Shown here: piece by piece, positions 1 to 23,703 of the stretch
Layout of the letters: each line of letters opens with the position of its first letter
How positions within the stretch are numbered: position 1 is the first letter of the stretch
Assembly (NCBI RefSeq): GCF_001908275.1
Contig: NZ_CP018620.1
Location: 6,014,001 to 6,078,000 of the forward strand
From: Paenibacillus xylanexedens
GTDB taxonomy: Bacteria > Bacillota > Bacilli > Paenibacillales > Paenibacillaceae
Direction of reading: 5' to 3'
Length of the DNA: 64,000 bases
Position numbers and translations under genes: made by a program
The notes under the pieces: model-generated
The model's input: the letters and a program-made list of their open reading frames with translations, nothing else
Database searches by the model: none
What the model was told of the DNA's origin: nothing

Positions 1-2340
1 TCCAGACAAGCTGTCTAACAAATGGCCACCTTCTATTGTTATACTACTTTTTTTAGCAGAGTTAGTTGGAAGATTAATCTCCTTTCTATATCTGTCCTCT
101 GCATGAACCTCCAAATATTCAATCAGCTTGTATGGATATGATAATTCGCTAAAAAGAAGGCTTAATTGCAAATCAAGATTAAACTCATCTTTAACCCCAT
201 TCATTAAGTGGACAAGTAAAATGGAGTCCATGCCCATCTCAAAAAAGTCGGTAAACACATCAATTTGATCCGGTTGTTTTCCAAGGATCTGTGATAGAAC
301 TTTTAGAAATCGCTCTTCTGTAAAATTATTCTTCTTAATATTTGATGATGGGCTGTTAGCTAACATGCTGCACTCCACCTTTGAGATACTTGTTAAGTTA
401 GCTGTCTCGTCAGATAATTCAAGCCAGTAATTCGATTGGTCAAACGAATATGCAGGCAGCGGAATCCATCTTTCGTTTTTGTTAAACAGGATATTCCAGT
501 CAGCGTCTGCCCCACTTAGATAAAGCGATATTGCCTCATTAGCCAGACTCTCGTCACGGGCGCCAGATTGAATGAACTCATTCAATTTCAGTACCAATTG
601 TTGGCTTAACTTCTGCTGTTCAACTAGCGTGATTTCTCCATTTGATCGGCAATCTTTATCCTCAGGCACTACTTTGAAATAACCTACGTTTGTTAAATTT
701 GGATTTAGCCGGTCTTTATCACCAAATGCATGTAGTTTCGAGTACAATTCCTCAGAATTTCTCACTGCAAATGCCATTCGATACGGGTAATGCTCTTTTC
801 TAACAGATGCGCTATAAGCTAGGTCTGCGATTCTGAATTCTCGATAACTTTTATTATGTTGATAATTTTTTAGTGTTTGCGTTAAAGATGAAAATGTTTT
901 AGCTGAAATCATGAAAATGTAATATTCACTTGCAGCATTTTGGGGCGCAGTTTCTGGTTCGAGCCATTCTTCCAACACAACATGACAGTTCGTTCCACTC
1001 ATTCCAAAGGAACTGACACCACACCTTCTCAAGTCCTCACCTACGACCTCCCAGTCCTGCAAATAATTATTCACATAAATTGGAGACTGGGCAAAATCTA
1101 TATTTGTATTTGGATAATGAAAATGCAAAGACTCAGGAATTTTCTTATGCTGCATAGCTAACACCGATTTAACAAGCCCTGCGATACCTGCAGCATTGCC
1201 TAAATGACCAACATTTGACTTTACAGAACCGATAGCACAAAATTGTTTTTTATCGGTGAATCTACTAAAAGCTCGCGATAGTCCATCTAGCTCAATTGGA
1301 TCCCCCAGCTTGGTTCCAGATCCGTGCGCTTCAATATATGAAATTGTCGACGGATCGATTCGGGCATCATTCCAAGCATCAATTAGAACCTCCTCTTGGG
1401 CGACCGGATTAGGTGCTGTGATTCCCATGGACTTCCCATCTTGATTGATTGCCGAACCTTTAATAACCGCATAAATATGATCTCTGTCTTTCAGCGCTTG
1501 TTTCAGTGGTTTTAACAACACTGATCCAACTCCCTCGCCGCTTCCAGAACCATCAGAGTCACGATCAAAGCTTCTCGTCCTACCGTTTGAAGATAGAATT
1601 CCAATATCAACATTTTGCAAGCGGGGAAGGACTAAGCGGACATCTATTCCACCTGCAATCGCCATATTACTTTCCCCCGAGCGGATGCTTTTGCATGCCA
1701 AATGAACTGCGACTAGAGATGAGCTACATGCCGTATCAACTACCATGCTAGGGCCTTTCAAGTCCAATAAGTAAGAAATTCGACTGGCCATAATAGACCT
1801 CAAATTGCCTTGTATCGAGCGCTCATACAGGTCTGGTGCAGCATGCATGATCAATGTTTTGTATTCTTCTCTAAAGTCACTGCCATAGCCTAAAAACACA
1901 CCCGTTCGAGTGCCCTTAATTTCTTTTGAATATCCCGCATCCTCAATCGTGTGCCACGCATTCTGTAAGAACAGTCGTTGTTGTGGATCCATTAATTTTG
2001 ACTCTGAAGGCAAAATATTAAAGAATTCATTATCAAATGAACTAATATTCTCTAAAAAGCCAGCTTCTTGTGCTAATGCCTCCTTGCTAACTGAGAGATT
2101 CAGTGTTTGATGTAAGCTCGTCATCTCTTTGTGACGATTAAGCGGTAACTCTCTAATCATATCTTTACCTTCGTGCAAAAATCCCCAAAATTGTTCTTTG
2201 TTTAAACTTTCTCCAAACATGCAACTCATTCCTACGATTGCGATATCTCTGTTAGAAATAGACGCCTGTTCCTGCACCTTTATACTTGAACTACTTAACG
2301 AATGTAGCTCCAAGCCTTTAATTGCTGAATTAAACTCCAT
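1..2340 (-). CDS. Trans-AT polyketide synthase, KS-(AT-less linker)-ACP, partial at the window edge
   Basis: The gene starts at ATG 2340 with an AAGGAG ribosome site, 30 bases after the preceding NRPS stop, and runs off the left edge; about 780 codons are visible. Residues ~30-455 are a ketosynthase with all three catalytic signatures: the DTACSSS cysteine (~residue 205), EAHGSGT and KSNVGH. There is no acyltransferase. The KS-AT linker runs straight into a post-AT-type linker ending in a PLPAYSFDQSNYW motif, which is the usual remnant of a trans-AT PKS. An ACP follows, with its phosphopantetheine serine in GMDSIL (~residue 706), and more sequence continues leftward. It should extend the chain from the upstream NRPS using the discrete acyltransferase at 9669-11018. 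Any ketoreductase or release domain would lie outside the window. Confidence 0.9.
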   Translation of the reverse strand, partial: MEFNSAIKGLELHSLSSSSIKVQEQASISNRDIAIVGMSCMFGESLNKEQFWGFLHEGKDMIRELPLNRHKEMTSLHQTLNLSVSKEALAQEAGFLENISSFDNEFFNILPSESKLMDPQQRLFLQNAWHTIEDAGYSKEIKGTRTGVFLGYGSDFREEYKTLIMHAAPDLYERSIQGNLRSIMASRISYLLDLKGPSMVVDTACSSSLVAVHLACKSIRSGESNMAIAGGIDVRLVLPRLQNVDIGILSSNGRTRSFDRDSDGSGSGEGVGSVLLKPLKQALKDRDHIYAVIKGSAINQDGKSMGITAPNPVAQEEVLIDAWNDARIDPSTISYIEAHGSGTKLGDPIELDGLSRAFSRFTDKKQFCAIGSVKSNVGHLGNAAGIAGLVKSVLAMQHKKIPESLHFHYPNTNIDFAQSPIYVNNYLQDWEVVGEDLRRCGVSSFGMSGTNCHVVLEEWLEPETAPQNAASEYYIFMISAKTFSSLTQTLKNYQHNKSYREFRIADLAYSASVRKEHYPYRMAFAVRNSEELYSKLHAFGDKDRLNPNLTNVGYFKVVPEDKDCRSNGEITLVEQQKLSQQLVLKLNEFIQSGARDESLANEAISLYLSGADADWNILFNKNERWIPLPAYSFDQSNYWLELSDETANLTSISKVECSMLANSPSSNIKKNNFTEERFLKVLSQILGKQPDQIDVFTDFFEMGMDSILLVHLMNGVKDEFNLDLQLSLLFSELSYPYKLIEYLEVHAEDRYRKEINLPTNSAKKSSITIEGGHLLDSLSG

Positions 2341-2370
2341 TCTAATCGGACTCCTTTCCTTTATATTGAA

Positions 2371-5300
2371 TTAATTATTTTTTGGTATAACCGCATTTTC
2401 CAATAGCCTTACATACATAAGCATGAGTTCTTTCATACTCTCACGGTTCAAGAAATTCTTGTCAAAATGACAATGTAAAGCGACCCTATCTTCCGTAAAC
2501 TCCCAATAACAGATGAAATCAAATATCCTTAACAGCATATGGATAGGAACCGACTCAAAGGTAAGAAGAGGGGTAGCCCCTTCATGTTGAAATCTATTAA
2601 ATGATTTATTCAGGTCACGCCATAAAATGTTTATAGCAGGTGGAGAATTTAATAATACATGAGAATACTGGAACAACTCTTCAATACTCATTATTTTAGA
2701 TAAATCATATTTTCTCCCAGAAAAACGCCCCTGTGTTTCAACTAGGTATAACCAAATAACACTCGTGGTTTGCAACTGGGAAAGCAAGTAAGAAAAAACC
2801 CCTGTAAAAATGACATTTTCATCGTATCCCACTGTTTTGCGAGCGTTAACAAGTTCGGTTACCATTTCCGAAGTTAGCTGAATAAAAAACGAATCATATT
2901 CTGATTTCCCTACAATATCGCGAACAAAATAATGCTCAGGCATCCTTACACTAACCAACTCAATTTTTTGCTCTGTATCCCCCTGTTTATCAATAAACAT
3001 TGAAATGTTTCTAATGGTCCTGTGAGTAAACAAATCCGCTACTGTTAGTTTAGCTGGATATTGTTGCTCAATCCTCTCTTTCATTTGGACAATCCTTAAT
3101 GAATTGCCGCCAAGATCAAAGAAGCTATCGTCTATTCCGATATTCGAGGAATACGGGAGAAGCTCTTGCCAGGTTCTCACCAGGAACAATTCCGTATCTG
3201 TTACTGGTTGTTCATACTTTTGAGATAAGCTATCTCGAGTGAATACTGGTTGAGGTAACATATTTCGATTTAATTTACCACTATCCATGAGGGGTAGACG
3301 CTCCATGATCGTTATTGAAAGAGGAACCATGTAAGCTGGCAACCTCTCTCTTAAATAATTCGTAAGCTCTACTGTAGAGAATTCTTCAGTTGATTCTACG
3401 TATGCAGCAAGATATGGATCGACTCCCTCTTCCTCACGAAGTGTAACAACTGCTTTTTTCACAATCTTGTATTGTTGAATGCAACTCTCAATTTCCTCCA
3501 ACTCGATTCGATAACCTCTTAGCTTCACTTGAGTGTCCATTCTACCCAAATATTCAATATGTCCAGAAGCAGTCCATCTAGCTAAATCACCTGTTCTATA
3601 CCACCTCCCTTTTCCATAGGGATTTTGGCTGAATTTTAGATCATCCAACTCAGGTCTCTTGATATATCCTCTTGCTACCCCCGCTCCACCTAGTATTAAT
3701 TCTCCGGGTACCCCAATTGGTTGGATTCGGTTGTTGGAATCAACAATATAAGCATAAATACTAGGAAACGGACGTCCAATCGGAATTTTATTAGTATTGA
3801 AATTTGCATAGCCCTTCAGTGAATAGTAAGTTGCATAGATAGTTGACTCAGTAGGACCATACACATTTTCTAAACAAACATCAGGGAATACTTGAGCAAA
3901 GACTTGCACGATATCAGATGTTAACGGTTCTCCTGCGGAGAACACATATTTCAAATTGTGTTGATTCAACTTGTTTGAGTTATTTTTTATCGATTCAACG
4001 AAAACTTTTAGCATTGAAGGTACAAAGTTTAAATGGGTAACCCGATGCTTTTCAATCATTTGATAAATGTAGTAGGGATCCTTTTCCCCATCCTCTTCCA
4101 GGATAACTAACCTACCTGAATCTCCTGAAAACCATCCGAACAATTCCATCACTGACACATCGAACGTGTATGTTGTCTTTAATAAATATGCGTCTTGAGC
4201 AGTAAGAGGATATAGATGATTCATTTCCTGCAGTATGTTCATTACATTTTGATGCTCTACTTGCACCCCTTTGGGAACACCAGTGGAACCGGATGTATAG
4301 ATCACATAAGCCAATTCCGTAGGATCCATTTTTATATTTAGATTGTGCGACAAATCTTCCTGATACGATTGTTCATAATTGGATACATTAATTACTTGGC
4401 ACAAACTATTGATAGTATCCACATAGTTTTCTTGAGTAATTATGAGTGTCAAACCACTATCCTTGACAATAAATTGAAGTCTGTCTTGTGGACAATCCGG
4501 TTGAATCGGTAAGTAAGCACAGCCCGATTTTAGTACAGCCATAATGGATATCCACATCAAAGGACTACGGTCTAGAATGATGCCCACGGTCTCTCCCTTA
4601 TTGACACCCTGATCTATAAAATGCCAAGCAAGTCGATTCGCGTAATGATTCAACTCTTTATAAGAATACGAAATATCATTGTAGGAAATCGCTATCGCGT
4701 CCGGTGTTTTTGCCGCTTTGCTTTCAAATTTTTCATGTATGCATACATTAGATATATCAGGAATGGCTGGACTCAAAAAATTTAATACAACCTCACGTTG
4801 TTCTGCTGGCACAAAGTCCAGCTCTTTTAAACTCACCTCATACTGATCGAGCATATTCCCTAACAGTTCGCGATAACACTCTGTGAAGCGAATAATAGAA
4901 TCCCGATTGAATAAATTAGTTCGGTATTCTAATAAGAAAGTTAGTCCCTTTTCCTGCTCAAGTACTTCCATTGCCAATTCAAACTTTGCAATTTTACTAT
5001 AATAAGGTTCTTTTTTGAGAGTTAATTCCTTAAGTGTTACAACCTCATAGTCGCTGTTTTGCATAACAAATAACGTATCGAAAAGCGGATGTCGATTCCT
5101 ATCAAACTGCAAATGGAGTTTGTCTATTAGCAGTTCCAATGGATATTGCTGATGTTCTAAAGCTGAAAAAATGCTTGTCTGAACCTCTCGGATATAATCA
5201 ATTACTTTAACCTTGTTGGAAAGATGGGAACGTACAGGCAAAGTGTTTACAAACATCCCTATCGTACTATCGAATTCAGTTGCTACCCTACCTGATACTG

Positions 5301-8300
5301 GCATACCAACTACGATATCCGACTGATCGGTATATTTATGCAGCAAAATTTTAAAAGCGCTTAGCAACAATGCATACAAGGTTACACGATGAGATTGTGA
5401 AAACCCGCTTAACCTCTTCTTATATAAATCGTCTATCGTAAAACTATAAGTTTCACCTTCATAATGTGGGCTTAGCGGTCTCTGCTCATCCGTGTACAAA
5501 TTTAAAACTGGAACTGACTTCTCAAATAATTTCAACCAGTATGATTCATCTTGTTGGAATTGATCGGATGACCAATATTCCTGCTGCTTTTGGTTGAAGA
5601 AACTAAAAGGAGTAGGAACGCTAGGCAGCCCCTTCCCCTGCAAAAGATCAATGAACTCCTTCATCAAAATGGAAATCGAAGTTCCATCTGCAATAATATG
5701 ATGAATTTCCAACATCAATCCATACTTATGATTACTAAAATTCAATAGCTTTGCTCTTAGAAGTCCCGGTACTTGTAAATCATAACTACTCTGAAAGGCA
5801 TGAAATAGTGACTCGAAATCACTTTCTTCTGCGTGCTCAGAATGTAATTTAAAAGGAACTTCATTGTGATATGTGGCATACACTTCACCATTTTCTATTT
5901 CAAACGAGGCTCTTAATGAATCATGTCGATTAATTAGGACTTTAATTGCATCTTCAATCAATTGATGATGAACAATTCCTTCTATAGAATAAGCAACTGA
6001 TAAGTTATATGCCGTTTGAAATTCCTCCATCTGATGTATAACGAACAATCTTTTTTGCGCAGGTGTTACAGAACGACTACGAACCTCTGGCCTTACTTGC
6101 AGAACCTGTTCTTCTACATCCTGAATCTTCTTTTGTTCCTGCAAGCGATAAATTTGGGTAGAGAGTTGAGAAATAGTTGGAAAGTTGAAAATATCCTGGA
6201 TCGGCACATGAATATGGAGTTCATTACGTAGTCGATTAGATAAAGCAGCTGCCTTTAACGAATGTCCGCCTAATCTCATAAAATCATCGTGAATGCCTAA
6301 ATATTCGCAATTTAAAATTTCTTTCCATAAATTTATTAGATTAACTTGAAGTACCGTCTCAGGTAAATCTATCTCATCAGACGTTGGCTTCGTCCATATT
6401 GTTTTAGGCAACCTACTTCTATCCACTTTCCCATTAAAATTAAGAGGTAGCTCATCCATCACAACTATTTTCTCGGGAATCATGTAGCCAGGCAAATAGT
6501 CCAACAACTGCTCGCGAATTGCCTCTTCAGTTTCTGCCCCCATAAGGTTCAGAGTAACGTAGGCACATAAGTATGTGTCACCGTCAATATTGATTTGATC
6601 CATAACGATTCCTTGCCGAATAGCTGAAATACGATTCAGCACTTTTTCTACTTCCATCAACTCAATACGATGACCACGGATTTTAACTTGCGAGTCTCTA
6701 CGTCCTAAAAACTCAATAGTGCCATCCACGTTGAGTCTGCCAAGATCTCCTGTTTTATACATACGTTTTCCTGGTTTAAAAGGACTGGTTACATAAGCCA
6801 GATTCGTTAAATCATCTCTATTGGCATAGCCTCTAGCTAAACCGGAACCTGTAATATAAATTTCTCCGATCATTCCAACTGGCTGTAAGGACCATTTATA
6901 GTCTGGGTGAAATACCATATAGGTCATATTATGAATCGGAGGCCCAATACAAACATCCCGCTCAGTAACATCCATGACAGATGACCAGACGGTTGTTTCA
7001 GTAGGTCCATAAATATTATAAATGCGTGCCATGGTGTTTGTTCGCAGAGTGTTTAATAGAGCTTGTGGGAAACTTTCCCCACCAATCAGAATCAGTTTAA
7101 CGTACTCAAGCGCTTTGGTTGATATACTACTTTCTAAGAATGAAATCATTCTTGAAGGGGTGGATTGAATAACCTCAATTTCGTACTTTACAATTAATTC
7201 ATTGACTAATTGTGGATCCGCACATTGTTCCTCCGTAGCCATAATTACAGTCATTCCCTGGGATAAAGGCAATAGCGTTTCTGTAATAAATGGATCAAAA
7301 GAAACATTAGTGATAGAAATAATCTTAAAATAATTATGGAATTGTACTTGTTCGCAAAATCCGGAAATAAAATTAGTTAAACTGTGATGTTCAATCAGAA
7401 TGCCCTTTGGCCTACCTGTTGAACCCGATGTAAAGAAAACATAAGCCAGTTGATTAGGATGAAAAGGCAAATCCAAATTCAAACTAGACTCCTTAATAAG
7501 TTCAGGTTCGAGAAATGGAGTTACTCTTCTCCCTGAAAAAGAAATCTCCTCAAAGTTGGAGAGTGAGGATATTAAAAACTTGGCACCGCTCTCATTTAAC
7601 ATAACCTCGATTCTTTTAACCGCTAACCTTGTATCTAATGTGAGAAAAGCCGCATTAGCTTTAATGACAGCGAGAATGTAAATCATAAGTTCTGAGGAAC
7701 GCTCCATATGAATGGCGATAATATCTTCTTTCCCTACCCCTTGTTGTCTAAGTAACGATGCCACTTTATTGGCTTTTGCATTTAACTGTGAGTAAGTTAA
7801 GCTAGACTCCTCACATACAAAAGCAATCTTATCTGGATATTTCGCGGCACAATTCTCTATCCATTTATGAACCCCATCTTGCAACATCTCAGGGATGAAT
7901 TTTTCAGCCAATTGTACATTAGTATCAGCTTCGGTATAATTCATCAGTGGAAGGTTGGCGACCTCATTGCGCGGTTGATAAATAACTTCTTCCAGTATGC
8001 AATTAAAATATTTGCTGATCAGCTCTATTGTATCATCGCAAAGCACAGAATTATCGTATAGAAATCTTATCTTCCATTGGTCAAAGGTGAGAATCTCTAC
8101 CATTATTTTCACATTGGTAGTTTCATGCATGTTGTATGAGACGACTTGCAACTCTTCTGTCTGCTGGACTTCTTCCATGAATAATGGGTAGTTTTCTATA
8201 ACAATAATTGATTCAAACAAAGGTTCCCCTTTGTCCGCATTTAACCATTTAGTCAATTCGTATAGAGGAGTGTTGGAGAAGGGCTCCCTTTCTTTCAACT

Positions 8301-9267
8301 GTTCTCCAACAGATTGAATAGTGCTATAAAACGGCATGCTACCTTCCGTTTTTATTCTCAACGGAAGTGTATTGATAAGCAAACCAGCGATTTCCTCAAC
8401 TTCATTTAGTGCGATATGACGACCTGATATCGTCGTACCAAAGATAACATCCTTTGTTCCAGCAAATCTTTGTAGCAATAGGCCCCAGACAGAATAAAAA
8501 ACTGCTGCAGGTGTAACATGATATTTCGTTGTTATCTTCTTTAATTGCTGGATAACGTGATCGGGGATGATCATTTCTAATTGAGATTTTCCCTTCCCCT
8601 TAGCTCCCTCATTTAAGTTAGGGAATGCCGCAGTACTGACATAATCATGTAAATAATTTTGCCAGTATTTTTTTTGCACTTCTTTTCCTATTAAATTATC
8701 ATTAGTTATATGTCGAATGTAACTACTAAACTGGGCCTTTATCACCGGTTGTGACAGTTGATTTTTATAGGCTTGAAGTAACTCATTAATAACAATGCCC
8801 GTACTCCAACCGTCTAAAATTATATGATGGAATGTAAAAATGACTTCAAAGACCGACTCATTTAATCGGTATACAGTCATGCGATGACATGACTTTGTTA
8901 TATCAATAGGAGTTTGAAGGTCCCTTCGCCGAATTTGCTCCAACTCAGATTGTTGATCAATTATGTGTTCTGACATAAGACTAATTTCTTGTATTAAAAT
9001 CTTGTTTTCTTTTAGTACGATTTGTATTGGACTTTTTAACTGCTCCCATCGGAACACAGTACGTAAAGCTTCATTATTTTGAATCACATAATTCCATGCC
9101 ACTTGAAAACGATTCAATTCGAGTTCGCCCTCAAAAGTAATTGATAGCTGTTCGATATAAAGATCCTCTTTATTTGTTAATTGCATTTCGTAAAGAATAC
9201 CGGCTTGCAATGGGGTAAGAGGTATAATATTGGTTACATTACTCGGATCCAGTTTACCTTCTATCAC
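2371..9267 (-). CDS. Two-module non-ribosomal peptide synthetase (C-A-T-C-A-T plus stunted C-like tail)
   Basis: 2298 residues from GTG 9267, with GAGGAG upstream. C1 (~10-430) opens with LTPLQAGIL, a style typical of D-L condensation domains, and has HHIILDG at ~147. A1 (~455-970) has TSGSTG at ~610 and specificity residues I read as D-P-T-Q-L-G-I-V-W-K, closest to glycine codes. T1 has its serine in LGGHSL (~1001). C2 (~1066-1490) has HHIIADG at ~1189. A2 (~1510-2010) reads D-V-M-N-F-A-V-I-Y-K, which I cannot assign. T2 has LGGNSL (~2053). The last ~200 residues resemble only the C-terminal half of a condensation domain and lack HHxxxDG. C1 should accept the D-configured donor made by the C-A-T-E protein at 15543-20051, and the chain then passes to the PKS immediately downstream. 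No thioesterase domain is present. Confidence 0.93.
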   Translation of the reverse strand: MIEGKLDPSNVTNIIPLTPLQAGILYEMQLTNKEDLYIEQLSITFEGELELNRFQVAWNYVIQNNEALRTVFRWEQLKSPIQIVLKENKILIQEISLMSEHIIDQQSELEQIRRRDLQTPIDITKSCHRMTVYRLNESVFEVIFTFHHIILDGWSTGIVINELLQAYKNQLSQPVIKAQFSSYIRHITNDNLIGKEVQKKYWQNYLHDYVSTAAFPNLNEGAKGKGKSQLEMIIPDHVIQQLKKITTKYHVTPAAVFYSVWGLLLQRFAGTKDVIFGTTISGRHIALNEVEEIAGLLINTLPLRIKTEGSMPFYSTIQSVGEQLKEREPFSNTPLYELTKWLNADKGEPLFESIIVIENYPLFMEEVQQTEELQVVSYNMHETTNVKIMVEILTFDQWKIRFLYDNSVLCDDTIELISKYFNCILEEVIYQPRNEVANLPLMNYTEADTNVQLAEKFIPEMLQDGVHKWIENCAAKYPDKIAFVCEESSLTYSQLNAKANKVASLLRQQGVGKEDIIAIHMERSSELMIYILAVIKANAAFLTLDTRLAVKRIEVMLNESGAKFLISSLSNFEEISFSGRRVTPFLEPELIKESSLNLDLPFHPNQLAYVFFTSGSTGRPKGILIEHHSLTNFISGFCEQVQFHNYFKIISITNVSFDPFITETLLPLSQGMTVIMATEEQCADPQLVNELIVKYEIEVIQSTPSRMISFLESSISTKALEYVKLILIGGESFPQALLNTLRTNTMARIYNIYGPTETTVWSSVMDVTERDVCIGPPIHNMTYMVFHPDYKWSLQPVGMIGEIYITGSGLARGYANRDDLTNLAYVTSPFKPGKRMYKTGDLGRLNVDGTIEFLGRRDSQVKIRGHRIELMEVEKVLNRISAIRQGIVMDQINIDGDTYLCAYVTLNLMGAETEEAIREQLLDYLPGYMIPEKIVVMDELPLNFNGKVDRSRLPKTIWTKPTSDEIDLPETVLQVNLINLWKEILNCEYLGIHDDFMRLGGHSLKAAALSNRLRNELHIHVPIQDIFNFPTISQLSTQIYRLQEQKKIQDVEEQVLQVRPEVRSRSVTPAQKRLFVIHQMEEFQTAYNLSVAYSIEGIVHHQLIEDAIKVLINRHDSLRASFEIENGEVYATYHNEVPFKLHSEHAEESDFESLFHAFQSSYDLQVPGLLRAKLLNFSNHKYGLMLEIHHIIADGTSISILMKEFIDLLQGKGLPSVPTPFSFFNQKQQEYWSSDQFQQDESYWLKLFEKSVPVLNLYTDEQRPLSPHYEGETYSFTIDDLYKKRLSGFSQSHRVTLYALLLSAFKILLHKYTDQSDIVVGMPVSGRVATEFDSTIGMFVNTLPVRSHLSNKVKVIDYIREVQTSIFSALEHQQYPLELLIDKLHLQFDRNRHPLFDTLFVMQNSDYEVVTLKELTLKKEPYYSKIAKFELAMEVLEQEKGLTFLLEYRTNLFNRDSIIRFTECYRELLGNMLDQYEVSLKELDFVPAEQREVVLNFLSPAIPDISNVCIHEKFESKAAKTPDAIAISYNDISYSYKELNHYANRLAWHFIDQGVNKGETVGIILDRSPLMWISIMAVLKSGCAYLPIQPDCPQDRLQFIVKDSGLTLIITQENYVDTINSLCQVINVSNYEQSYQEDLSHNLNIKMDPTELAYVIYTSGSTGVPKGVQVEHQNVMNILQEMNHLYPLTAQDAYLLKTTYTFDVSVMELFGWFSGDSGRLVILEEDGEKDPYYIYQMIEKHRVTHLNFVPSMLKVFVESIKNNSNKLNQHNLKYVFSAGEPLTSDIVQVFAQVFPDVCLENVYGPTESTIYATYYSLKGYANFNTNKIPIGRPFPSIYAYIVDSNNRIQPIGVPGELILGGAGVARGYIKRPELDDLKFSQNPYGKGRWYRTGDLARWTASGHIEYLGRMDTQVKLRGYRIELEEIESCIQQYKIVKKAVVTLREEEGVDPYLAAYVESTEEFSTVELTNYLRERLPAYMVPLSITIMERLPLMDSGKLNRNMLPQPVFTRDSLSQKYEQPVTDTELFLVRTWQELLPYSSNIGIDDSFFDLGGNSLRIVQMKERIEQQYPAKLTVADLFTHRTIRNISMFIDKQGDTEQKIELVSVRMPEHYFVRDIVGKSEYDSFFIQLTSEMVTELVNARKTVGYDENVIFTGVFSYLLSQLQTTSVIWLYLVETQGRFSGRKYDLSKIMSIEELFQYSHVLLNSPPAINILWRDLNKSFNRFQHEGATPLLTFESVPIHMLLRIFDFICYWEFTEDRVALHCHFDKNFLNRESMKELMLMYVRLLENAVIPKNN

Positions 9268-13434: not shown

Positions 13435-13472
13435 GTTTTTATCTCCTCTACTTTTAATATATCGTTGGGACA

Positions 13473-14327: not shown

Positions 14328-15052
14328 AAATCCTCACCTACCAATTTATTAGTAACTTGCATAATCAATGACTCTAAATTCGATTGAATAAAAAAATGGC
14401 CTCCTGGAAATGAATGAATGTCTACACCCTTGGAAACAAGTTTACTCCAATTGCTCTCTTCAATTGCCCCAGACACCAGCGGATCTTTATTTCCAAAGAA
14501 AACTGTAAGACTGCAAGGCAGGGGTCTTCTATACGGATTAAACTTGTAAAGTTCATGAATTTTCAAATCATTACGTAAAATAGGTGTATATATCTTAGAC
14601 CACTCAGCATTTTCAAAAACCTCTTTTGAGGTACCCCCTAGGCTTGTAATATACTCACGGAATTGCTGATCTGGTAATAAGTGAATATATCTGTTCTTAT
14701 TGATGGCTGCTGGACTACCCACAGCTGCCATAAACAAATATTCTGGAGTAGCGTAACCTGCTTCCATCAATCGATGTGCTACTTCATATGCAACTGTTCC
14801 CCCAAAGCTATATCCAAAAAAAGAAAAGTTATCAATTGAATCCAGCGTTGGAGCAATCACTCCATATAAATAATCAACAAGTTCTTTCATCGTCACGCAT
14901 AAGGGAAGATTTGATTGCTGCCCATGACTAGGATAATCTAACGAAAAGATATCAATCGATTGGTGGATATGATTCTTCCAACTATAATAAGCCGCTGAGG
15001 ATCCACCGGCATGAGGAAAACAATATAATCGTGAACGCTTCAAATTTCTCAT
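14324..15052 (-). CDS. Type II thioesterase (editing)
   Basis: 242 residues, an alpha/beta hydrolase of the NRPS/PKS type II thioesterase family. It shows CFPHAGGS near the N-terminus, the nucleophile S82 in GYSFGG, an acidic residue in FFGNKDPLV, and the catalytic histidine in FPGGHFF. Such enzymes hydrolyse wrongly loaded or stalled acyl groups from carrier proteins. It is the first gene after a 490-base non-coding gap that follows the C-A-T-E NRPS, and it overlaps the dehydrogenase gene by 4 bases. Confidence 0.95.
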
Positions 15053-15542: not shown

Positions 15543-18500
15543 TTAAGTAAAAAGTTGATCTAAATCCCCTTGAGTCAAACTTACCAAGTCAAAGTCTGAG
15601 GGGGAAAACTGTGGCTCTTCCATTCCAAGACAATGATTAACCATTTGTTGAAGGTTTATAATATATTCACGTACAAATCGTTCCACACTTTCAATATAAA
15701 AAACTTTTCTGCTGAACGTGACAGCAACGCATAACTGCTTATTTTTTACTAATACTATAATTTCCAGCATTGCATCAAATTCGTTTTCTTCAGCCTGATC
15801 CTTGCCTGTGTTCAAGGTCGACAACTCGAAATTTGTTTTCTCCATACGATCGTCTATCTCTCCCAAGTAGTTAAACCGGATCGTTTTTTCGGTAAAAGTC
15901 GGCAGTTTGTTAGCAAGTACTAATGCTCCGTAACCAATACCATGATTGGGCACACTACGGAGATCTTCCTTAATACTTTTGATTTGTTTTCCGAGATCAG
16001 CTTCAGGCACGACTAAACGAAGCGGATACATAGATGTGAACCAGCCCACAGTACGTGATATATCTAAATCCGGAAAAACCGCCTCTCGGCCATGTGACTC
16101 CATCTCTATGACAAAACTACGCTTTCCGCTCATAGCATGGCAGGTAACTGCTAATGCTGCTACCAGTATCTCGTTTGGTCGAGTATTATACGCTCGATTC
16201 GCACTCGTGAATAGTTCTTTTGTAACTTCTACATCTAATTCAGCATGGATAGTTTCGGTATCGCCTACTTTAAGGGTTTCACATCTGAGATCAAAATTCA
16301 AAGGAGCTTGTTGGTCTTGCAGCATGTTAGACCAGTAAATAGTTTCATGTTCAATTTCATCATGATATCCTGAGAGTGCTTCAGACCAATTTCGATAAGA
16401 GTCCGAAGTAAGCAAAGTTGGAGCCTTCTGAACACCCGCTGAGGATTTAATGAGATGATCCAAATCTTCCAATAGAATGCGCCATGATACAGCGTCTACA
16501 ATCAAATGATGAGCCGTCAATAAGAGCAAATCTTCGCCGATGTGTCTTTGAAATAAAACACCTTTGAACAAAGGACCTCTCTCTATATGCAAACTCTGTT
16601 TACATATAAGCGATTGTTCAAGAACGACTCTTTCGATATCATATGGTGCACAGTTGTCAAGTGAGATGACCTCAAGTAGCTCCGGCTGATCAGAAAAATT
16701 AGAAAAATAACGTAACTTGGAGTTCGATTTATCAAACCTGAGTAAAAGTGTATCGTGCAGCTGAATAAGCTGTTTAAATGCATTTAGAATATGCTCGAAT
16801 GAGAAAGTAATTTTCAAATTTAACAAAATCGATTGATTGTAATAATGAGGATTTTGAAAGTTACTCTTGATAAAATAATCAATAATAGGCGTCAACTTCA
16901 CATATCCCTTAGAAGGTTCTCTAATAGCCCTCTTACTATTTTCTTCTTTCAGTGCATATACAAGCTCGCCGATGACTGGAAACGATAAAACATCACTAAC
17001 CTGAAGCTGAAAGCCTTCTATGTTAAGAAGCGTTTTTACCTGAATTGCTTTTATTGAATCTCCACCTAACGAGTAAAAATTATCTCTTAATGAAATTCCC
17101 TCTGATTGTAAAACCTCACTCATAACTTTTAAAACAATTTTTTTACGCTTATCTAATGCATCATTGGACATTGGAAGTCTGTTGTTTACGGCTGTCTGTG
17201 GAAGTGGTAGTGCTCCACGGTCGATTTTGCCATTCACTGTTACTGGGAGCGCATTCATAAAAACTAAGTATTGCGGAATCATAAAGGCAGGCATTATTTC
17301 CAGAAGGGCTTCTCGCACTTCAAATGAAGTCAAATCCTCCCGTTGGTAAACAAGATACGCCGCTAAAGCAGACTTGTTATTCTCATCACAGCAAGCAATC
17401 ACGACTGCTTCGCTAACTCCATCCACTCTCAAAAGCTGATTCTCAATTTCCCCCATCTCAATTCGGTATCCGTTCAACTTAATTTGTGAGTCTTTACGTC
17501 CTACGTACTCCAACTTCCCGTCAGGACGCCAGAATACCAGATCATCTGTCTTATACATCATACCTTTGTTTACAGAAAAACGATTGAACACAAATCGATT
17601 TTCCGTCATCTCGGACTGGCCTAAATAACCTATGGCCACCCCATCGCCAGCTATATATAGTTCTCCTACTTGTCCTCTCGGAACCAGTTGCATATTATCG
17701 TCCAGTAAATAAACCTGCGTATTTGCAATTGGGCGACCGATAGGAACTGAACCTTGATGATCCACCTCCGGATCAAATTGGTGAGTAATACATCCTACAA
17801 CAGTTTCTGTGGGGCCGTATTCATTTATTAATGTTACTCTCCTACCGAAGCTATTGTAGATTTCCATTGCTATTGCCGCCTTAAGATCCTCTCCACCCAC
17901 CACAAGAGTACGTACCGAAGACTCTGTGTTCTCACGTGTTCTGATCATAGACAAATGAGCAGGTGTTAATTTAAGAACCGTAACGATGTTATCAGCAAGG
18001 ATCTTACGAATAATAAACTCATCTTCGCTGGCTGGATATATTAAGATAGATTGCCCGTTAATGAGCGGCGGAAAAATAGCAGTAATCGTCAAATCGAAAG
18101 CTAGAGAAGAGTATAATGCAGAGACGTCATTCTCCTTTGTGTAATAAGTTTTTCCGGCCCACAAAGTATAGTTAAGTAAGCCCCGATGATTTATTACTAC
18201 CCCTTTTGGATTACCAGTGGAACCAGAAGTGTAAATAATATATACAGGGTCTTCTAACGAAATATAGATGGGCTCCAGGTTAGGAGACGAATCTACTCGT
18301 TCAAGAGTTAACCTGTTCACAAACATGATTTTCCCGTCAAACTTAATTCCACACGGAAAATCTACATTAGTTAGAACTAAGGAAACTTGGCTATCCTCCA
18401 AAATGTACTTGATTCGCTTTGCTGGATAAGCTAAATCCAAAGGTAAATAAGTCGCTCCAACTTTCATAACAGCTAAAATAGATATAAGAGTTTCAAAAGA

Positions 18501-20051
18501 ATGTGTGATTAGCAATGCTACAATATTCCCTTTTCTGACCCCTTCATTTTGGAGTTTGGCAGCCAACATATTGACATAATCAATCATAGACGCATACGTC
18601 ATTTGCTCATTTCCACATATAGCTGCGATCTTATTAGGCGTAGAAATTGCTCGCTCCTCTATTAGCGAATAAACAAGTTTATCACCTAAATATTCTACTT
18701 CAGTAGAATTCCATTTTTGTGTAAGTAGATAGCGCTCTTGTTTCGAAGTAATCCTCAAATCACCGATAGTTGAGACATCGAATGGATTTAGCACTTGCTC
18801 AATCAATAAAATTAACCGTTGGAACATATTTTCAATGTCTTCATCAGTATAATCGCCAGTTAAATAATCAATAACAATCTCTAATCGACCTGTACTATCC
18901 CATTCTTTAATAATGAATTGTAAAGAATTAAGTTGTTCGCCACAATACAGTTCCTCATATTCCATCGAGAAGTCATTCCAATAGTTGTTCAGTTTAGTGT
19001 TGTAATAATTTACGCTTATCTGTAAAAGTTGATCGTATCCTCTTTTCCTAAGTTCCAGTTCTTGAATTAACAAATCATAAGGATATCTTTGGTGATAATA
19101 ACACTCCTTCAACTCCTTATTCACTCGCTTTATAAAACTGGTGATCAGTTCACTGCCTTCCATTGAAGTGCGAAATGCTAATGTACTTGTAAACATACCA
19201 ATTATCTTCTTTTCTATTGCTCCCGATCTGTTTAATAATGGCGTCCCAATGATAAGATCACTTTTTTGTGTTAATTTGTGTTGGTAAATTAATATCATTG
19301 ACAAAAAAAATGTATTTATAGAAGAGGTATTTGTTTGCAAGTAACTCTTTATTTTGTTTGTAAGTGATCGATCAATCCAGAAACTTTTTCTTGTGCCACA
19401 TAGCTCAGTTGTTTTTGCTTCTAAATAATTATCAGGCAACGTTTTAAACTTGTTCATCCAGAAGAGTTTATTTTTTTCAAATCGTTTAGAGGATACATAT
19501 CTTTGTTCCTTAATAATAAAATCCTCGTAACCGTTATTATTCTGGATCTCAACATTCTCTTCGTGGATCAGTTTATTATAAATCTGATTAATCTCTTCGG
19601 TCATAATTTGGATACTCCATCCGTCACATACAATATGATGAATTTTTACAAAATAACCAAATCTCTCATCAGAAGTCTTTACAATAATAAATTCATATAA
19701 TTGCTGGTCAAGAAGTTTGAACGGCTTCGTAAATTGTGAAGTTGCCCATTCCTTAACTTTATTTTCTGAAAGATCGTAATTAGAGAAGTCCAGCATTGTC
19801 AGTGGAATTTGCTTATATGCCTCAAACTCTTGAAAGACTTTGTCTTCATTTTCTGTAATCTTAACTCTTAACCCTGAATGTTTCTCTATAAATATATTTA
19901 TAGCTTTTTCAAGGATTGCAACATCTACCCATCCTTTAATCCACACGATACCACCAATATTATGTAACGAATGATTTGGATATATTTTCTCGATATACCA
20001 AATCCTCTTTTGAGGATGACTTAAAGGAACTTTTTTTTGTTCTACTACCAT
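15543..20051 (-). CDS. Prodrug-initiating NRPS, C-A(Asn)-T-E
   Basis: 1502 residues from ATG 20051. The N-terminal condensation domain (~8-430) has HHIVCDGW at ~139 and no carrier domain before it, so it should act as a fatty-acyl starter condensation domain. The A domain (~455-960) has TSGSTG at ~609; its specificity residues read D-L-T-K-V-G-E-V-G-K, one position from the usual asparagine code DLTKLGEVGK. The T domain has LGGDSI (~997). The epimerisation domain (~1040-1490) has HHLIVDAVSW at ~1184 and a NYLGE-type motif. C-A(Asn)-T-E is the architecture of AmcA/XcnA/ClbN-type proteins, which make N-acyl-D-asparagine as a protective cap. The D-Asn-type peptidase at 20626-23703 fits this exactly. 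Confidence 0.94.
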   Translation of the reverse strand: MVVEQKKVPLSHPQKRIWYIEKIYPNHSLHNIGGIVWIKGWVDVAILEKAINIFIEKHSGLRVKITENEDKVFQEFEAYKQIPLTMLDFSNYDLSENKVKEWATSQFTKPFKLLDQQLYEFIIVKTSDERFGYFVKIHHIVCDGWSIQIMTEEINQIYNKLIHEENVEIQNNNGYEDFIIKEQRYVSSKRFEKNKLFWMNKFKTLPDNYLEAKTTELCGTRKSFWIDRSLTNKIKSYLQTNTSSINTFFLSMILIYQHKLTQKSDLIIGTPLLNRSGAIEKKIIGMFTSTLAFRTSMEGSELITSFIKRVNKELKECYYHQRYPYDLLIQELELRKRGYDQLLQISVNYYNTKLNNYWNDFSMEYEELYCGEQLNSLQFIIKEWDSTGRLEIVIDYLTGDYTDEDIENMFQRLILLIEQVLNPFDVSTIGDLRITSKQERYLLTQKWNSTEVEYLGDKLVYSLIEERAISTPNKIAAICGNEQMTYASMIDYVNMLAAKLQNEGVRKGNIVALLITHSFETLISILAVMKVGATYLPLDLAYPAKRIKYILEDSQVSLVLTNVDFPCGIKFDGKIMFVNRLTLERVDSSPNLEPIYISLEDPVYIIYTSGSTGNPKGVVINHRGLLNYTLWAGKTYYTKENDVSALYSSLAFDLTITAIFPPLINGQSILIYPASEDEFIIRKILADNIVTVLKLTPAHLSMIRTRENTESSVRTLVVGGEDLKAAIAMEIYNSFGRRVTLINEYGPTETVVGCITHQFDPEVDHQGSVPIGRPIANTQVYLLDDNMQLVPRGQVGELYIAGDGVAIGYLGQSEMTENRFVFNRFSVNKGMMYKTDDLVFWRPDGKLEYVGRKDSQIKLNGYRIEMGEIENQLLRVDGVSEAVVIACCDENNKSALAAYLVYQREDLTSFEVREALLEIMPAFMIPQYLVFMNALPVTVNGKIDRGALPLPQTAVNNRLPMSNDALDKRKKIVLKVMSEVLQSEGISLRDNFYSLGGDSIKAIQVKTLLNIEGFQLQVSDVLSFPVIGELVYALKEENSKRAIREPSKGYVKLTPIIDYFIKSNFQNPHYYNQSILLNLKITFSFEHILNAFKQLIQLHDTLLLRFDKSNSKLRYFSNFSDQPELLEVISLDNCAPYDIERVVLEQSLICKQSLHIERGPLFKGVLFQRHIGEDLLLLTAHHLIVDAVSWRILLEDLDHLIKSSAGVQKAPTLLTSDSYRNWSEALSGYHDEIEHETIYWSNMLQDQQAPLNFDLRCETLKVGDTETIHAELDVEVTKELFTSANRAYNTRPNEILVAALAVTCHAMSGKRSFVIEMESHGREAVFPDLDISRTVGWFTSMYPLRLVVPEADLGKQIKSIKEDLRSVPNHGIGYGALVLANKLPTFTEKTIRFNYLGEIDDRMEKTNFELSTLNTGKDQAEENEFDAMLEIIVLVKNKQLCVAVTFSRKVFYIESVERFVREYIINLQQMVNHCLGMEEPQFSPSDFDLVSLTQGDLDQLFT

Positions 20052-20107
20052 ATTTATTCCCCCAATCTACTGTTAAAGTTTATTGATAGTTGTTCTGACA
20101 AAAAATA

Positions 20108-20356
20108 TTACTCTCTAATACTCTCCCCTATTATTTCCTTTTCCACAAAAACAACTAACTCACTAATGGTCGAAAAATTCTCCATACTAAGAAATTCGTT
20201 TGGAACTTCAATTCCAAAACTTTCTTCTATACTAACAATAAGGCGAATAAAACTGATTGAATTTAATCCAATACCAACTAGATCATTTGTTAATAAAGTA
20301 TTATCAGGAAGATCTAGTATTTCAATAATAATATTTTTTATTTTCATTTCAATCAT
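20108..20356 (-). CDS. Stand-alone acyl/peptidyl carrier protein
   Basis: 82 residues with GGAGAG before ATG 20356. It has the four-helix carrier pattern with phosphopantetheine serine S33 in GIGLNSISF. It lies 56 bases upstream of the C-A-T-E NRPS. Candidate roles are donating the fatty acyl starter to the first condensation domain or carrying a tailored extender unit. It differs from the FkbJ-like ACP at 13180, lacking the NSLFAMQL signature, so the cluster has at least two free carriers with separate jobs. No partner ligase is visible next to it. Confidence 0.88.
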   Translation of the reverse strand: MIEMKIKNIIIEILDLPDNTLLTNDLVGIGLNSISFIRLIVSIEESFGIEVPNEFLSMENFSTISELVVFVEKEIIGESIRE

Positions 20357-20625
20357 CTTGTTATCTCTCCAATACTTTTATATTTGACGAGTTGTCAAGC
20401 CGAACATGTAGTCTACTCAAAAGTTAGGTTATGAATTTACGACCCCATCTATGGCTTTTGGGGTTAAATATCATTCTAGTGTTTAGTGCTAATTGTTTCC
20501 TTAGAAAATCCTTGACTTTTTTAGAGAATTAAAAATTGGAGCTCTCAGCAGAAGCTCATTTTCAGGATCTATAAACGAAATAGATGCATCCATTATTTTC
20601 TGAAGAAATTTACACTCTCTAAAAC
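20357..20625. other. Short non-coding spacer between exporter gene and carrier gene
   Basis: 269 bases with no reading frame or strong hairpin. It may contain a promoter for the carrier protein and C-A-T-E genes, but I see no unmistakable -35/-10 pair. Confidence 0.4.
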
Positions 20626-23600
20626 TCAGTTCACCAGTCTGCCTCTCTCCAGTTGAATTAAAAAGTCTGCACAGTGAAAGTACCTATCATCATGGGATAT
20701 AACAATTATGCATTTCCCCATAGATTTAAATTCAGGCAACAACTCATAGTAGAAATGTCGACGAAACTCAGGATCCTGATCAGCTGCCCATTCGTCAAAC
20801 AAACAAATTGGCTTGTCTTCCAAATAAGCAAGTAAAAGTGCCAATCTTTTCTTTTGCCCAGTGGAAAGAGATGTTGTTGAAAAATGGCCATTACGAATCG
20901 TCACTTTATCCTCAAGTTGTAAGCCATGAAGAAGTGTAGCAATCCGCTCCTCTTTCTGAGAACAATTAATTCCATACAAACGTTCAAATAAATAATAATC
21001 ACTGAAAATTGCCGAAAAATACTCACCCATATGCTCGGGAGCTACTATTTTTCCATTAATATAGATATCTCCGTATGTCGGTTTGTACAAACCTGTTATT
21101 AATTTAGCCAATGTCGTTTTACCACTGCCATTTCCACCAGTTATGAAAGTAACTGTTCCCGATTGGAATTTAAGATTGAATGGTCCAACTACAAATTGAC
21201 CACTTTCCTCCCCTCCATAGCTATAGCCAGTGTTTTGCATTAAGAGCTCTATCTTCATATCCGAAGCTATCTGCAAGTTTAATAATTCGCTCGAACTATC
21301 CTGGATCTGGGAAATTTCTGCGGATAGGTCTTGAATACGCCTCAATGATATGCGAATTTGCAATAACATAGGATATGCATTTAATATGCCGTTTACCGGG
21401 CCAGTTATATAAAGAAATACAAAAACGTAAGTCTGCACAGTTTTTGTTAGCAAATTTGGGAAGATGATTGGGAAAAAAAATGCCACAGTTCCAATAACAA
21501 CTGTAAATAAAAGTTCTCCCACTACATTTACATTTGCGAATCGGATATCACCTTCAGTCCTTTTAATACGATAAATATTTGAACTTTCATTTAGATGTTC
21601 TTTAAATTCTTGATTTTTCGCCCTACTAAGTCGTAGTTCCTTAAATCCGTGAAGCATGTCGCTGACTAATCTAAAAAAAACTGTTTGGATCTCACGTGTT
21701 TCGTCCCAAAGCTTTTCTGCCTTACTTCCCAGCCAAAAATATAATCCTACAACAACTAATATAACAATCATGGATAGTATCAATGCATAAATATTAAGCA
21801 GGGCAAGGTAAATAAAACAACATATAAGCGTTATAGAGGAAATCACACCTGAAACGACAACATTAACAGAACGACTTACGTTTTCTGTGTCATTGTTTAG
21901 CACAGTATATAGCCGTCCAGACTCTATTTTCTCCAACTTTTCGTATGGTGTTTTTAAAATCCTAGTTATCAATTCAGAACGTTTTTCATAGACTAAATTA
22001 TTGGTCAATGCCACTAGTCTAGTACTAATGTAACGTTGTCCATATACATACATTAAAATACCGAGTGCAAAATAAAAAAGAAGTCCGCTAGTTAAGTTGT
22101 CATCTTTACCAAACGTTTGGTTAATGACAAAAATAATATAAGCGTTTCCGAAACCACTTATCATGCCAAGCATAAGTAAGGTGATATAGGGTTTACCCCC
22201 TTTTTTTTGGAAAAGCAACATCAGAATATGGTAGATAGCATACACCACACCAAAGGTAGCTGCAGCGCCTATCGCAGGAACTAGTGTAAATGGTGCCCAT
22301 ATATTTAATGCACTCCACGGAAGTTTGAATAACAGTACTTTAGGCAAATAATATAACCCACTTAAGAAAGCAAACAAAAAAAATATAGCCCCGCTTATTT
22401 TTACTATTTGCCAGCGGTCAATGCCTGTCCAACAACGATCGCCATTGATGACTTCCTTAAGACAACGTATGATAAGATAAATTACAATCAGGATAACAAG
22501 ACCAATTATCACTAACAACACTGAGGAAATTTTATCCAGTTTACTGTATGTATCTGGAAGGGGTTCAACAGGAGTCCGTCCTCTCATTATAGACATAACC
22601 CCATTGGCAATTTCTGCAGTATAATCGGAATTTAAATTCCCCATGACAGCTACTCCCAACTTTTCATCCTTACGCATAACGATGAATGATGAGAAGTTAG
22701 GATTTGTCCCTCCATGCGAAATTTCCCCGCCTCCTGATTGATAAACCGACCAACCACTAGCGTAAGAAGAGCCGTCAGAATCAGGAGCGACGCTTCCATC
22801 AATTTGATGTGACTTTTTTATTAATTCCGGGTCAAATTCTATCGGCTCAACGGATCCAAGCTGTATATGCATCCATTTGGCAATATCAGCAGGTGATGAA
22901 TTCAAATAACCAGCGGGTACGTTTCCACGAAATCTCGGAGCGTTGTAGGCATGCTGTTTAAAGAAACCAAGCTTATAGCCCGTTGCAAGTCCATTTCTTA
23001 CGGCGTCGTCATGCTTCATATAAGTACTCTCAAGCCCAAGGGAATTAATAATATTTTCCTGCATGTATTCCTCAAAGGATAGGCCAGATACTTGTTGAAT
23101 GATTAAGCCGAGAATATCGTAATTTATTGTCGAATACATGAAATACTCGCCTGGTAGCATGTTTTTATTCTGCCACAGTTCTTTACCTACCAACATTCTA
23201 ACTGTCTGTTCCAGAGCATTGTCTGCAACTGAAACAGGTATCTCGCCGATCGTTTCTGGTGGAATTGATGAAGTATGATGTAGAAGTTGGTCAATGGTTA
23301 TTTCGAATTTCTTTCCTTTGTAATTCATATAAAACCAAGGCAAATACTTTTCAACCGGATCCGTCAATTTTATAAGCTTCTGTTTCTCCAATTGCAAAAT
23401 GGCCAGACCAGTGAATGCTTTCGTGTTTGAGCCCATTTCAAATAAAGTATTTCCAGTTACAAGAGTTTTAGTATCAATATCACTATAGCCTGAATAGTGT
23501 TGATACTTAATTTCATTTCCCTGTACGACAATGACCGCTATACCAGGTATTTTCGCAGCTTTTTGTTGTTTTCTTATATAATCACCAATTAACCCCTCTT

Positions 23601-23703
23601 TTTTATCAAGCGGGTTTGCTTGCACCGAAAGAATAAAAAACACATTGTAAATCATAAGCATCACTAGAACACATAATACCAACTTCCGTTTGTGTACCAC
23701 CAT
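20626..23703 (-). CDS. D-asparaginyl-type prodrug peptidase fused to ABC exporter (ClbP/ZmaM type II)
   Basis: 1025 residues from ATG 23703; an in-frame GTG at 23712 is the alternative start. In order it holds a signal segment (MVVHKRK plus hydrophobic core), a class-C beta-lactamase-like S12 peptidase domain (~35-380), three membrane helices, a six-helix ABC transmembrane domain of the cyclic-peptide-exporter type, and an ATP-binding domain. The catalytic S92-x-x-K95 (SNTK) and Y190 (YST) match the Ser-Lys-Tyr triad of ClbP. The NBD shows Walker A GGNGSGKT, signature SLSTGQ, Walker B ICLFDEW and the switch histidine VISHD. The peptidase faces outside and should cut N-acyl-D-Asn from the inactive precursor while the ABC part exports it, giving self-protection. 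It is the first gene of the cluster as transcribed. Confidence 0.94.
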   Translation of the reverse strand: MVVHKRKLVLCVLVMLMIYNVFFILSVQANPLDKKEGLIGDYIRKQQKAAKIPGIAVIVVQGNEIKYQHYSGYSDIDTKTLVTGNTLFEMGSNTKAFTGLAILQLEKQKLIKLTDPVEKYLPWFYMNYKGKKFEITIDQLLHHTSSIPPETIGEIPVSVADNALEQTVRMLVGKELWQNKNMLPGEYFMYSTINYDILGLIIQQVSGLSFEEYMQENIINSLGLESTYMKHDDAVRNGLATGYKLGFFKQHAYNAPRFRGNVPAGYLNSSPADIAKWMHIQLGSVEPIEFDPELIKKSHQIDGSVAPDSDGSSYASGWSVYQSGGGEISHGGTNPNFSSFIVMRKDEKLGVAVMGNLNSDYTAEIANGVMSIMRGRTPVEPLPDTYSKLDKISSVLLVIIGLVILIVIYLIIRCLKEVINGDRCWTGIDRWQIVKISGAIFFLFAFLSGLYYLPKVLLFKLPWSALNIWAPFTLVPAIGAAATFGVVYAIYHILMLLFQKKGGKPYITLLMLGMISGFGNAYIIFVINQTFGKDDNLTSGLLFYFALGILMYVYGQRYISTRLVALTNNLVYEKRSELITRILKTPYEKLEKIESGRLYTVLNNDTENVSRSVNVVVSGVISSITLICCFIYLALLNIYALILSMIVILVVVGLYFWLGSKAEKLWDETREIQTVFFRLVSDMLHGFKELRLSRAKNQEFKEHLNESSNIYRIKRTEGDIRFANVNVVGELLFTVVIGTVAFFFPIIFPNLLTKTVQTYVFVFLYITGPVNGILNAYPMLLQIRISLRRIQDLSAEISQIQDSSSELLNLQIASDMKIELLMQNTGYSYGGEESGQFVVGPFNLKFQSGTVTFITGGNGSGKTTLAKLITGLYKPTYGDIYINGKIVAPEHMGEYFSAIFSDYYLFERLYGINCSQKEERIATLLHGLQLEDKVTIRNGHFSTTSLSTGQKKRLALLLAYLEDKPICLFDEWAADQDPEFRRHFYYELLPEFKSMGKCIIVISHDDRYFHCADFLIQLERGRLVN

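Follow-up and report, generated by a model that had tools for sequence, protein, structure and literature searches.

A prodrug-type peptide-polyketide cluster of Paenibacillus xylanexedens with a dedicated aspartate decarboxylase and a predicted glycine-polyamine end

The chromosome of Paenibacillus xylanexedens (7.05 Mb) holds a hybrid cluster of nonribosomal peptide synthetase (NRPS) and polyketide synthase (PKS) genes that raises a simple question: what would an assembly line of the acyl-D-asparagine prodrug type make with its own aspartate 1-decarboxylase (PanD) and a radical S-adenosylmethionine (SAM) aminomutase, and how would it release its product? We analysed a window of 64,000 nucleotides (contig NZ_CP018620.1, positions 6,014,001 to 6,078,000) together with its left flank, employing Pfam and NCBIfam scans for domain calls and a motif search for catalytic residues. 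Our reading, to which we give a probability of roughly 0.55, is that the cluster makes a cationic antibiotic of peptide-polyketide type, first in the form of an inert acyl-D-Asn precursor, with beta-alanine inside and a Gly-polyamine end, which is uncapped on export. Within this picture we infer the residue order, the beta-alanine, the polyamine end, the activation of the prodrug and a resistance role for an acetyltransferase of the GNAT type.

The cap and its removal would be the work of g13 and g15. The initiation NRPS g13 (1502 aa; 15543..20051, on the minus strand like all cluster genes) has the condensation-adenylation-thiolation-epimerization (C-A-T-E) order of the initiation module of acyl-D-Asn prodrug clusters. 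Its A-domain code DLTKVGEVG is one that we take to be of the Asn type, and its E domain carries the motifs HHLIVDAVSW, GWFTSMYP and FNYLGE. The counterpart in the paenilamicin (pam) cluster of Paenibacillus larvae reads DLTKIGEVG; we identified pam in a 4.29-Mb genome (G139), where both published pamA primers (PMC4234257) match exactly on one locus. The second component, g15 (1028 aa; 20626..23712), fuses a beta-lactamase-type peptidase half (PF00144) to an ABC exporter half of the cyclic-peptide type (TIGR01194 above cut-off) and is 44% identical to the peptidase-ABC protein of pam. Its catalytic residues S95-x-x-K98 and Y193 are the SxxK and Tyr of ClbP/ZmaM-type peptidases, and a Walker A motif lies at residue 859. 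Zwittermicin and edeine are reported to rely on an acyl-D-Asn prodrug system, and one has been proposed for paenilamicin as well (PMC9889270, PMC9054821, PMC11581978). By analogy, the pairing of g13 and g15 would constitute such a system: g13 would build the acyl-D-Asn cap, its acylation being presumed from the domains and code, and g15 would export the inert precursor and remove the cap outside the membrane.

The opposite end of the chain is suggested by h1 (1392 aa), an NRPS left of position 1 with the order C-A-T-BtrH_N. The code of its A domain, DILQLGLIW, is one that we take to denote Gly, which makes h1 a terminal Gly module, and about 360 residues of a BtrH-like region follow its carrier domain. 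An alignment (A1) of the nine best matches to this terminal domain, from which the weak matches L151 and L159 and relatives of the x330 type (see below), all of which lack the Cys, were excluded, shows Cys37, Asp124, His139 and His142 to be invariant in all nine; their matches to BtrH_N and C39_2 all lie at E<1 (best 1.6e-9 and 1.7e-5). A homologous domain closes a 2499-aa NRPS of pam (ORF 52275-59774 on joined stretches; 169 bits, E 2.6e-50), in which two A domains with the codes DIWEVTADD and then DIFHMGMIW precede it. We assigned the pam domain A7, given in the table of PMC4234257 as Gly by one predictor and as hydroxyphenylglycine (Hpg) by two, to the A domain in front of the BtrH-like domain; the pairing of module and residue is our own. 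Paenilamicin is described as containing N-methyl-diaminopropionate, Gly and a C-terminal 4,3-spermidine (PMC9054821). Because pam shares the domain on an NRPS assigned to the Gly-spermidine end, we predict a Gly-polyamine end, most likely with spermidine, for the chain on h1 as well. Judging from pam, h1 would add Gly, and the Cys/His domain would move the Gly-thioester to the polyamine and thereby release the chain. The C-terminal putrescine of glidonin is reported to be installed by a condensation domain (PMC10587159), so that a BtrH-like release would represent another route. Among the papers listed in a literature search, which covered sources other than the original paper on paenilamicin biosynthesis (Mueller 2014), none showed a statement of a BtrH-like polyamine-joining route.

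BtrH-like domains were found in 7 of the 21 relative stretches that we examined; 12 of these stretches hold the peptidase and nine do not, and eight are single stretches of 11-20 kb, where an absence says little. Just past the left end of the cluster, on the opposite strand, lies a further BtrH-like protein (x330). In Brevibacillus, ketosynthase-acyl carrier protein (KS-ACP) proteins with a BtrH-like end (L229, L230, L231) present a PKS version of the release architecture, and weak similar matches occur in six further Brevibacillus genomes. In a KS-rich NRPS/PKS line of another genome (G570; L240-L241, joined 50646-58470), one BtrH-like protein carries a fused carrier domain and another stands free. 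A PDB search with a 313-aa pam ORF gave nothing useful.

Between these two ends, PanD would provide an unusual building block. The protein g6 (9311..9676) scores 156.1 bits against TIGR00223 (cut-off 106) and retains the Gly-Ser cleavage site. PanD is present in 391 of 392 genomes of the order, and the genome under study has a second copy, 0.9 Mb from g6 and 63% identical to it, which we took as the housekeeping copy. We rejected g6 as a recent duplicate of this copy: in a midpoint-rooted tree of 128 PanD sequences, g6 falls (support 0.92) in a group of 19 sequences that includes the PanD of G284, a genome of another genus of the same family, and excludes the other copy of its own genome. The likely destination of the beta-alanine is the second A domain of g1 (g1_A2); g1 is a 2109-aa NRPS left of position 1 with the order A-T-C-A-T-C. 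This domain reads FVASIWQG, with Val in place of the amine-binding Asp235, and is the only one of the seven A domains without this residue. Its code, VAWELTADD, keeps the W-E-x-T-A-D-D of the pam code DIWEVTADD, and the pam domains taken for diaminopropionate read FDISVWQF. A diaminopropionate-like pocket that has lost its anchor for the alpha-amine would suit beta-alanine. With its resemblance to domains of both the beta-alanine type and the pam diaminopropionate type, g1_A2 fits the dedicated PanD, which would tie the decarboxylase to the assembly line. In G284, two A domains read FVDSIWEI and FVDSICEI, with the codes VDWTMSLAD and VDCTVSLAD, which we take to be of beta-alanine type. For closthioamide, a cluster-encoded decarboxylase is one proposed source of beta-alanine in a non-ribosomal product (PMC6772006).

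How often PanD accompanies such lines was judged from two samples. We fetched seven PanD loci, chosen by ourselves from the first 20 entries of the PanD listing, where 12 further entries were left out. NRPS genes adjoin PanD in all seven; six are of the lipopeptide type, and the one in G284 belongs to an acyl-D-Asn prodrug cluster. In each of the six lipopeptide-type lines two or three internal A domains were read, none with a beta-alanine code; several of the lines end at the locus edge. In these loci (L213, L214, L215, L217, L218, L219) PanD lies directly upstream of the large NRPS, whose internal codes read DGFFLGVVF and DVWHFSLVD, so that a link between PanD and NRPS recurs within the order; the first domain in L213 and L218 is presumably fatty-acyl-AMP-ligase-like, judging from its motif. 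None of the 19 relative stretches chosen irrespective of PanD contains it; the other two of the 21, G122 and G284, were entered because of PanD, and in G122 some 50 kb separate it from the prodrug genes, its neighbour being a separate NRPS. Among the loci examined, a prodrug line with PanD is thus rare, yet not unique. A preliminary description of this locus took the added beta-amino acid supply (panD, aminomutase) as a combination not known for the named prodrug compounds; as a statement on genomes this is not supported for PanD with an acyl-D-Asn line, as G284 has both.

The radical SAM protein g8 (11003..12103) is a probable 2,3-aminomutase. It passes the tests of the KamA family, with 207.8 bits against TIGR00238 (cut-off 199.2), a CX3CX2C motif and the lysine for pyridoxal phosphate, which we take to be Lys315 by comparison with lysine 2,3-aminomutase. 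The equivalog cut-offs are not reached, neither for lysine 2,3-aminomutase (214.8 versus 525.4 bits) nor for glutamate 2,3-aminomutase, the best match (239.8 versus 650). In lysine 2,3-aminomutase an Asp pair binds the substrate, and glutamate 2,3-aminomutase has Lys and Asn in these roles. Compared to the lysine enzyme (PDB 2a5h), Asp293 corresponds to Arg272 in g8, and Asp330 to Ser310 as read by eye beyond the aligned part. We therefore rejected g8 as a lysine 2,3-aminomutase, since both lysine-binding Asp residues appear replaced. Arg272, Ser310, Lys315 and the cysteine motif, the latter with slight internal variation, recur in all 80 of the g8 relatives aligned, and a basic residue at the first position would go well with an acidic substrate, for instance glutamate. 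The probable product of g8 is another beta-amino acid, perhaps beta-glutamate; alanine, a conceivable substrate, would make the enzyme duplicate PanD. The product might feed the NRPS, but g1_A2 is the only A domain of the seven to lack Asp235, and the beta-alanine from PanD already fits it. The 80 relatives kept, 67-71% identical to g8, come from many Bacillales and include no sister cluster. In the own genome g8 is single-copy; one of 23 same-genus genomes has a match, at 35%, and the 21 relative stretches, some of them short, have none.

A polyketide step is placed in the middle of the chain by g4, a KS-ACP-aminotransferase-C protein of 1730 aa, whose first 780 aa occupy 1..2340 (whole gene L025:9648-14840). 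It is the only KS module and contains no acyltransferase (AT), as in trans-AT PKS modules; a free-standing AT, g7 (9669..11018; PF00698, fabD-type above cut-off, GHSLG), is encoded in the cluster, has malonyl transacylases as its best PDB matches and is taken to serve the KS module in trans. Three contiguous genes would supply the extender unit: the FkbK-type 3-hydroxyacyl dehydrogenase g11 (13473..14327; PF02737/PF00725), the carrier protein g10 (13180..13473; weak NCBIfam ACP matches, none in Pfam) and the presumably glyceryl-ACP-forming FkbH, g9 (12090..13145; TIGR01686 283.4 bits, cut-off 146.65). The placement of g10 between FkbK and FkbH recurs in several relatives, and FkbK matches of 49-59% identity were found in 13 of the 21 relative stretches. 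The usual hydroxymalonyl-ACP route has an acyl-CoA dehydrogenase as its fourth enzyme; here this is h0 (375 aa), encoded next to the leftmost gene of the cluster. Together, the four would yield hydroxymalonyl-ACP on g10, g7 would pass the unit to the KS of g4, and the aminotransferase of g4 may turn the beta-keto group into a beta-amine.

The remaining residues would come from g5, g1 and h2. The NRPS g5 (2298 aa; 2371..9267) has the order C-A-T-C-A-T with the codes DPTQLGIVW, which is Gly-like, and DVMNFAVIY, and would add two small residues. Between its last carrier domain and the KS protein lies a tail of about 190 aa (window 2371-2930), by eye like the C-lobe of a condensation domain; a search with this tail alone gave no match at E 1e-5 in any of the 21 relative stretches. 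After the polyketide step, g1 would add one residue (code DARHLVLLA) and then beta-alanine from PanD, and h2 (1314 aa, left of position 1 after g1; half-C-A-T-E), whose code we take to mean Thr and whose module carries an E domain, would add D-Thr. A near relative of g1 was sought; for the other 119 proteins among the matches listed, identity is at most 37%, and a Bacillus pseudomycoides counterpart at 50% and of matching length could rank below them.

These genes form a cluster of 19 genes and 45.7 kb, which runs from window position 23712 leftwards to -21981, that is, beyond the window. The right-hand genes have been named except for the free-standing carrier protein g14 (82 aa; 20108..20356; PF00550) and the type II thioesterase g12 (14324..15052; PF00975, GYSFG). 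Left of position 1, g4 is followed by g3 (AsnB, 620 aa), g2 (a luciferase-like monooxygenase, 338 aa), g1, h2, h1, h0 and, as the leftmost gene, a GNAT protein (152 aa) that may acetylate stray product. Packing is tight, with overlaps of 14 bases between g9 and g8, 16 between g8 and g7 and 8 between g7 and g6. Every gene listed in the preliminary description, from the C-A-T-E NRPS to PanD and the KamA-type protein, was recovered by Pfam and NCBIfam on one strand, and its reading of the cluster as prodrug-type, with PanD dedicated to it, is supported. The extent given there, 1 to 23,703, needs correction: the window holds half of the cluster, and the g15 frame opens at the GTG of 23712, although 23703 is indeed an in-frame ATG. 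The GC content is mostly 0.36-0.40 across the cluster versus mostly 0.40-0.50 right of 27000. In the low-GC stretch adjoining the right end, a transposase remnant with many stops (window 24700-26300, minus strand) is presumably of the IS3 type, judging from its motifs. The right flank is otherwise ordinary, with ABC transporter genes, a GH32 hydrolase, a solute-binding protein and a LacI-type sugar-binding regulator (window 35524-38251, 48909-52032, 54371-55447).

Several observations weigh against our reading, and some of them speak for other explanations. The BtrH_N score of h1 is 28.9 bits, just below the Pfam cut-off of 29.7, and a PDB search with the terminal domain matched no solved structure. 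BtrH itself is described as an acyl carrier protein:aminoglycoside acyltransferase (PMC10318531), and BtrH-like domains stand in lines as varied as the KS-ACP proteins of Brevibacillus and the free or ACP-fused forms of G570, so that an acceptor other than spermidine is conceivable. The domain could thus hydrolyse or cyclise the chain or join it to an amino sugar, in a prodrug cluster with no polyamine end. We consider this unlikely, as the same domain ends the NRPS of pam, whose product is Gly-spermidine-terminated, and h1 is Gly-coded too. The middle of the chain has its own difficulties. The A-domain codes are read from a mapping of the positions rather than from a predictor, and three of the seven A domains have no assigned substrate; among the domains compared, g1_A2 comes nearest to those of pam (33.1 and 33.5%), with the Gly domain of h1 at 32.8%, a slight margin, and g8 has no evident place in the chain.

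If PanD and the aminomutase instead fed the cell, supplying coenzyme A or osmolytes, they would merely be carried along and beta-alanine would not be built in. Relatives of g8 are indeed common in Bacillales, and with five reference loci tested no neighbour gene was kept beyond 8 of the 80 loci (antisense frames of the g8 gene excluded); likewise, six of the seven PanD loci lie beside lipopeptide-type lines with no beta-alanine code in the A domains read. The overlapping genes within the operon, the separate PanD elsewhere in the genome, the loss of Asp235 from g1_A2 and the pairing in G284 of AT-PanD with two beta-Ala-type domains speak for a role in the pathway, and we hold the cell-feeding explanation to be quite improbable. 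Doubt of another kind attaches to the condensation domains: the one at the end of g1, at the joint with h2, has HHIISDR where HHxxxDG is expected, and the C remnant that opens h2 lacks this motif. A decaying or silent cluster without a product would account for both as loss of function, for a g5 tail that is perhaps degenerate given its 0 of 21 matches, and for a low-GC island beside a broken transposase remnant. It is nevertheless very unlikely in our view, since none of the large frames is interrupted and the motif search found the others intact, among them S95xxK98 and Y193 of the peptidase, Walker A, TACSSS of the KS, YGKV of the aminotransferase and the carrier serines.

We thus retain a capped antibiotic with internal beta-alanine and a Gly-polyamine end. 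A bolder version is speculative: the BtrH-like papain-fold domain would be the polyamine-joining release enzyme of a group that includes paenilamicin, the beta-alanine module would descend from an A domain of the diaminopropionate type in which the Asp holding the alpha-amine was lost, and PanD and an aminomutase of new specificity would have been recruited beside it, so that the product would be an antibiotic directed at the ribosome and carrying two unusual beta-amino units. All of these together we regard as doubtful. Nonetheless, the cluster points to an uncharacterised, capped and probably cationic antibiotic, the BtrH-like domain is a testable candidate for making the Gly-polyamine end of paenilamicin-type compounds, and PanD beside an AT, seen here and in G284, may mark beta-alanine-bearing prodrug lines.

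How, then, does the cluster compare with its relatives? In line with the preliminary description, no second cluster with the whole set was found among the stretches examined. Of 75 genomes of the genus, nine, own genome included, have a peptidase-ABC match at E 1e-100 or better, and in seven it spans peptidase and exporter; a plasmid search gave partial matches only, with none of the 5000 records counted covering 80% of the query. The PKS protein g4 is alone in its 90% cluster, the best-ranked other protein being P0007 of B. pseudomycoides (50% over 1710 columns), with the same KS-ACP-aminotransferase-C build. For the peptidase-ABC protein (65%) and the Asn module (55%), no relative examined matches better than G138, of the same family and another genus; it also has the aminotransferase part (60%), FkbK, ACP, FkbH, AT and acyl-CoA dehydrogenase, and the 102 kb taken there hold no match to PanD, the aminomutase, the monooxygenase, AsnB or a catalytic BtrH-like domain. 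In G284 (L220, L221, L216, L222, L223) the Asn C-A-T-E module (37%), the peptidase-ABC protein (45%) and the KS (43%) are shared, and the AT (37%) adjoins PanD (66%) in the order NRPS-AT-PanD-KS. It differs in having two A domains of beta-Ala type, both in the VD form, and has no match to FkbH, FkbK, the hydroxymalonyl ACP, acyl-CoA dehydrogenase or the aminomutase.

Closthioamide follows a different assembly logic, and we know of no prodrug cap for it. Edeine, whose cluster was not found among the genomes reached (a Brevibacillus search with the h1 terminal domain gave other clusters), resembles our predicted product by published description in Gly plus polyamine, a ClbP homologue and an acyl-D-Asn precursor (PMC9641203, PMC9889270). 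Zwittermicin A of Bacillus cereus is described with an acyl-D-Asn precursor and the ZmaM peptidase (PMC9889270) and with use of hydroxymalonyl-ACP (PMC4207774). The preliminary description had rightly placed the cluster with the acyl-D-Asn systems of the zwittermicin kind but missed paenilamicin, the nearest named cluster that could be tested, which shares the peptidase-ABC protein, the Asn module, the hydroxymalonyl genes and the terminal domain. Identities to pam are 43% for the Asn C-A-T-E module, 50% for FkbK, 49% for FkbH and 54% for acyl-CoA dehydrogenase, and in both an NRPS ends in a BtrH-like domain. However, pam has more modules, middle residues that differ by code and, in the 120 kb taken, no match to PanD, the aminomutase or the monooxygenase, with the aminotransferase part of g4 matched weakly at 27%; conversely, no A domain of the present cluster carries the pam code DIWEVTADD, the nearest being VAWELTADD without Asp235. 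The cluster therefore works like the paenilamicin, edeine and zwittermicin systems, but it is not that of paenilamicin.

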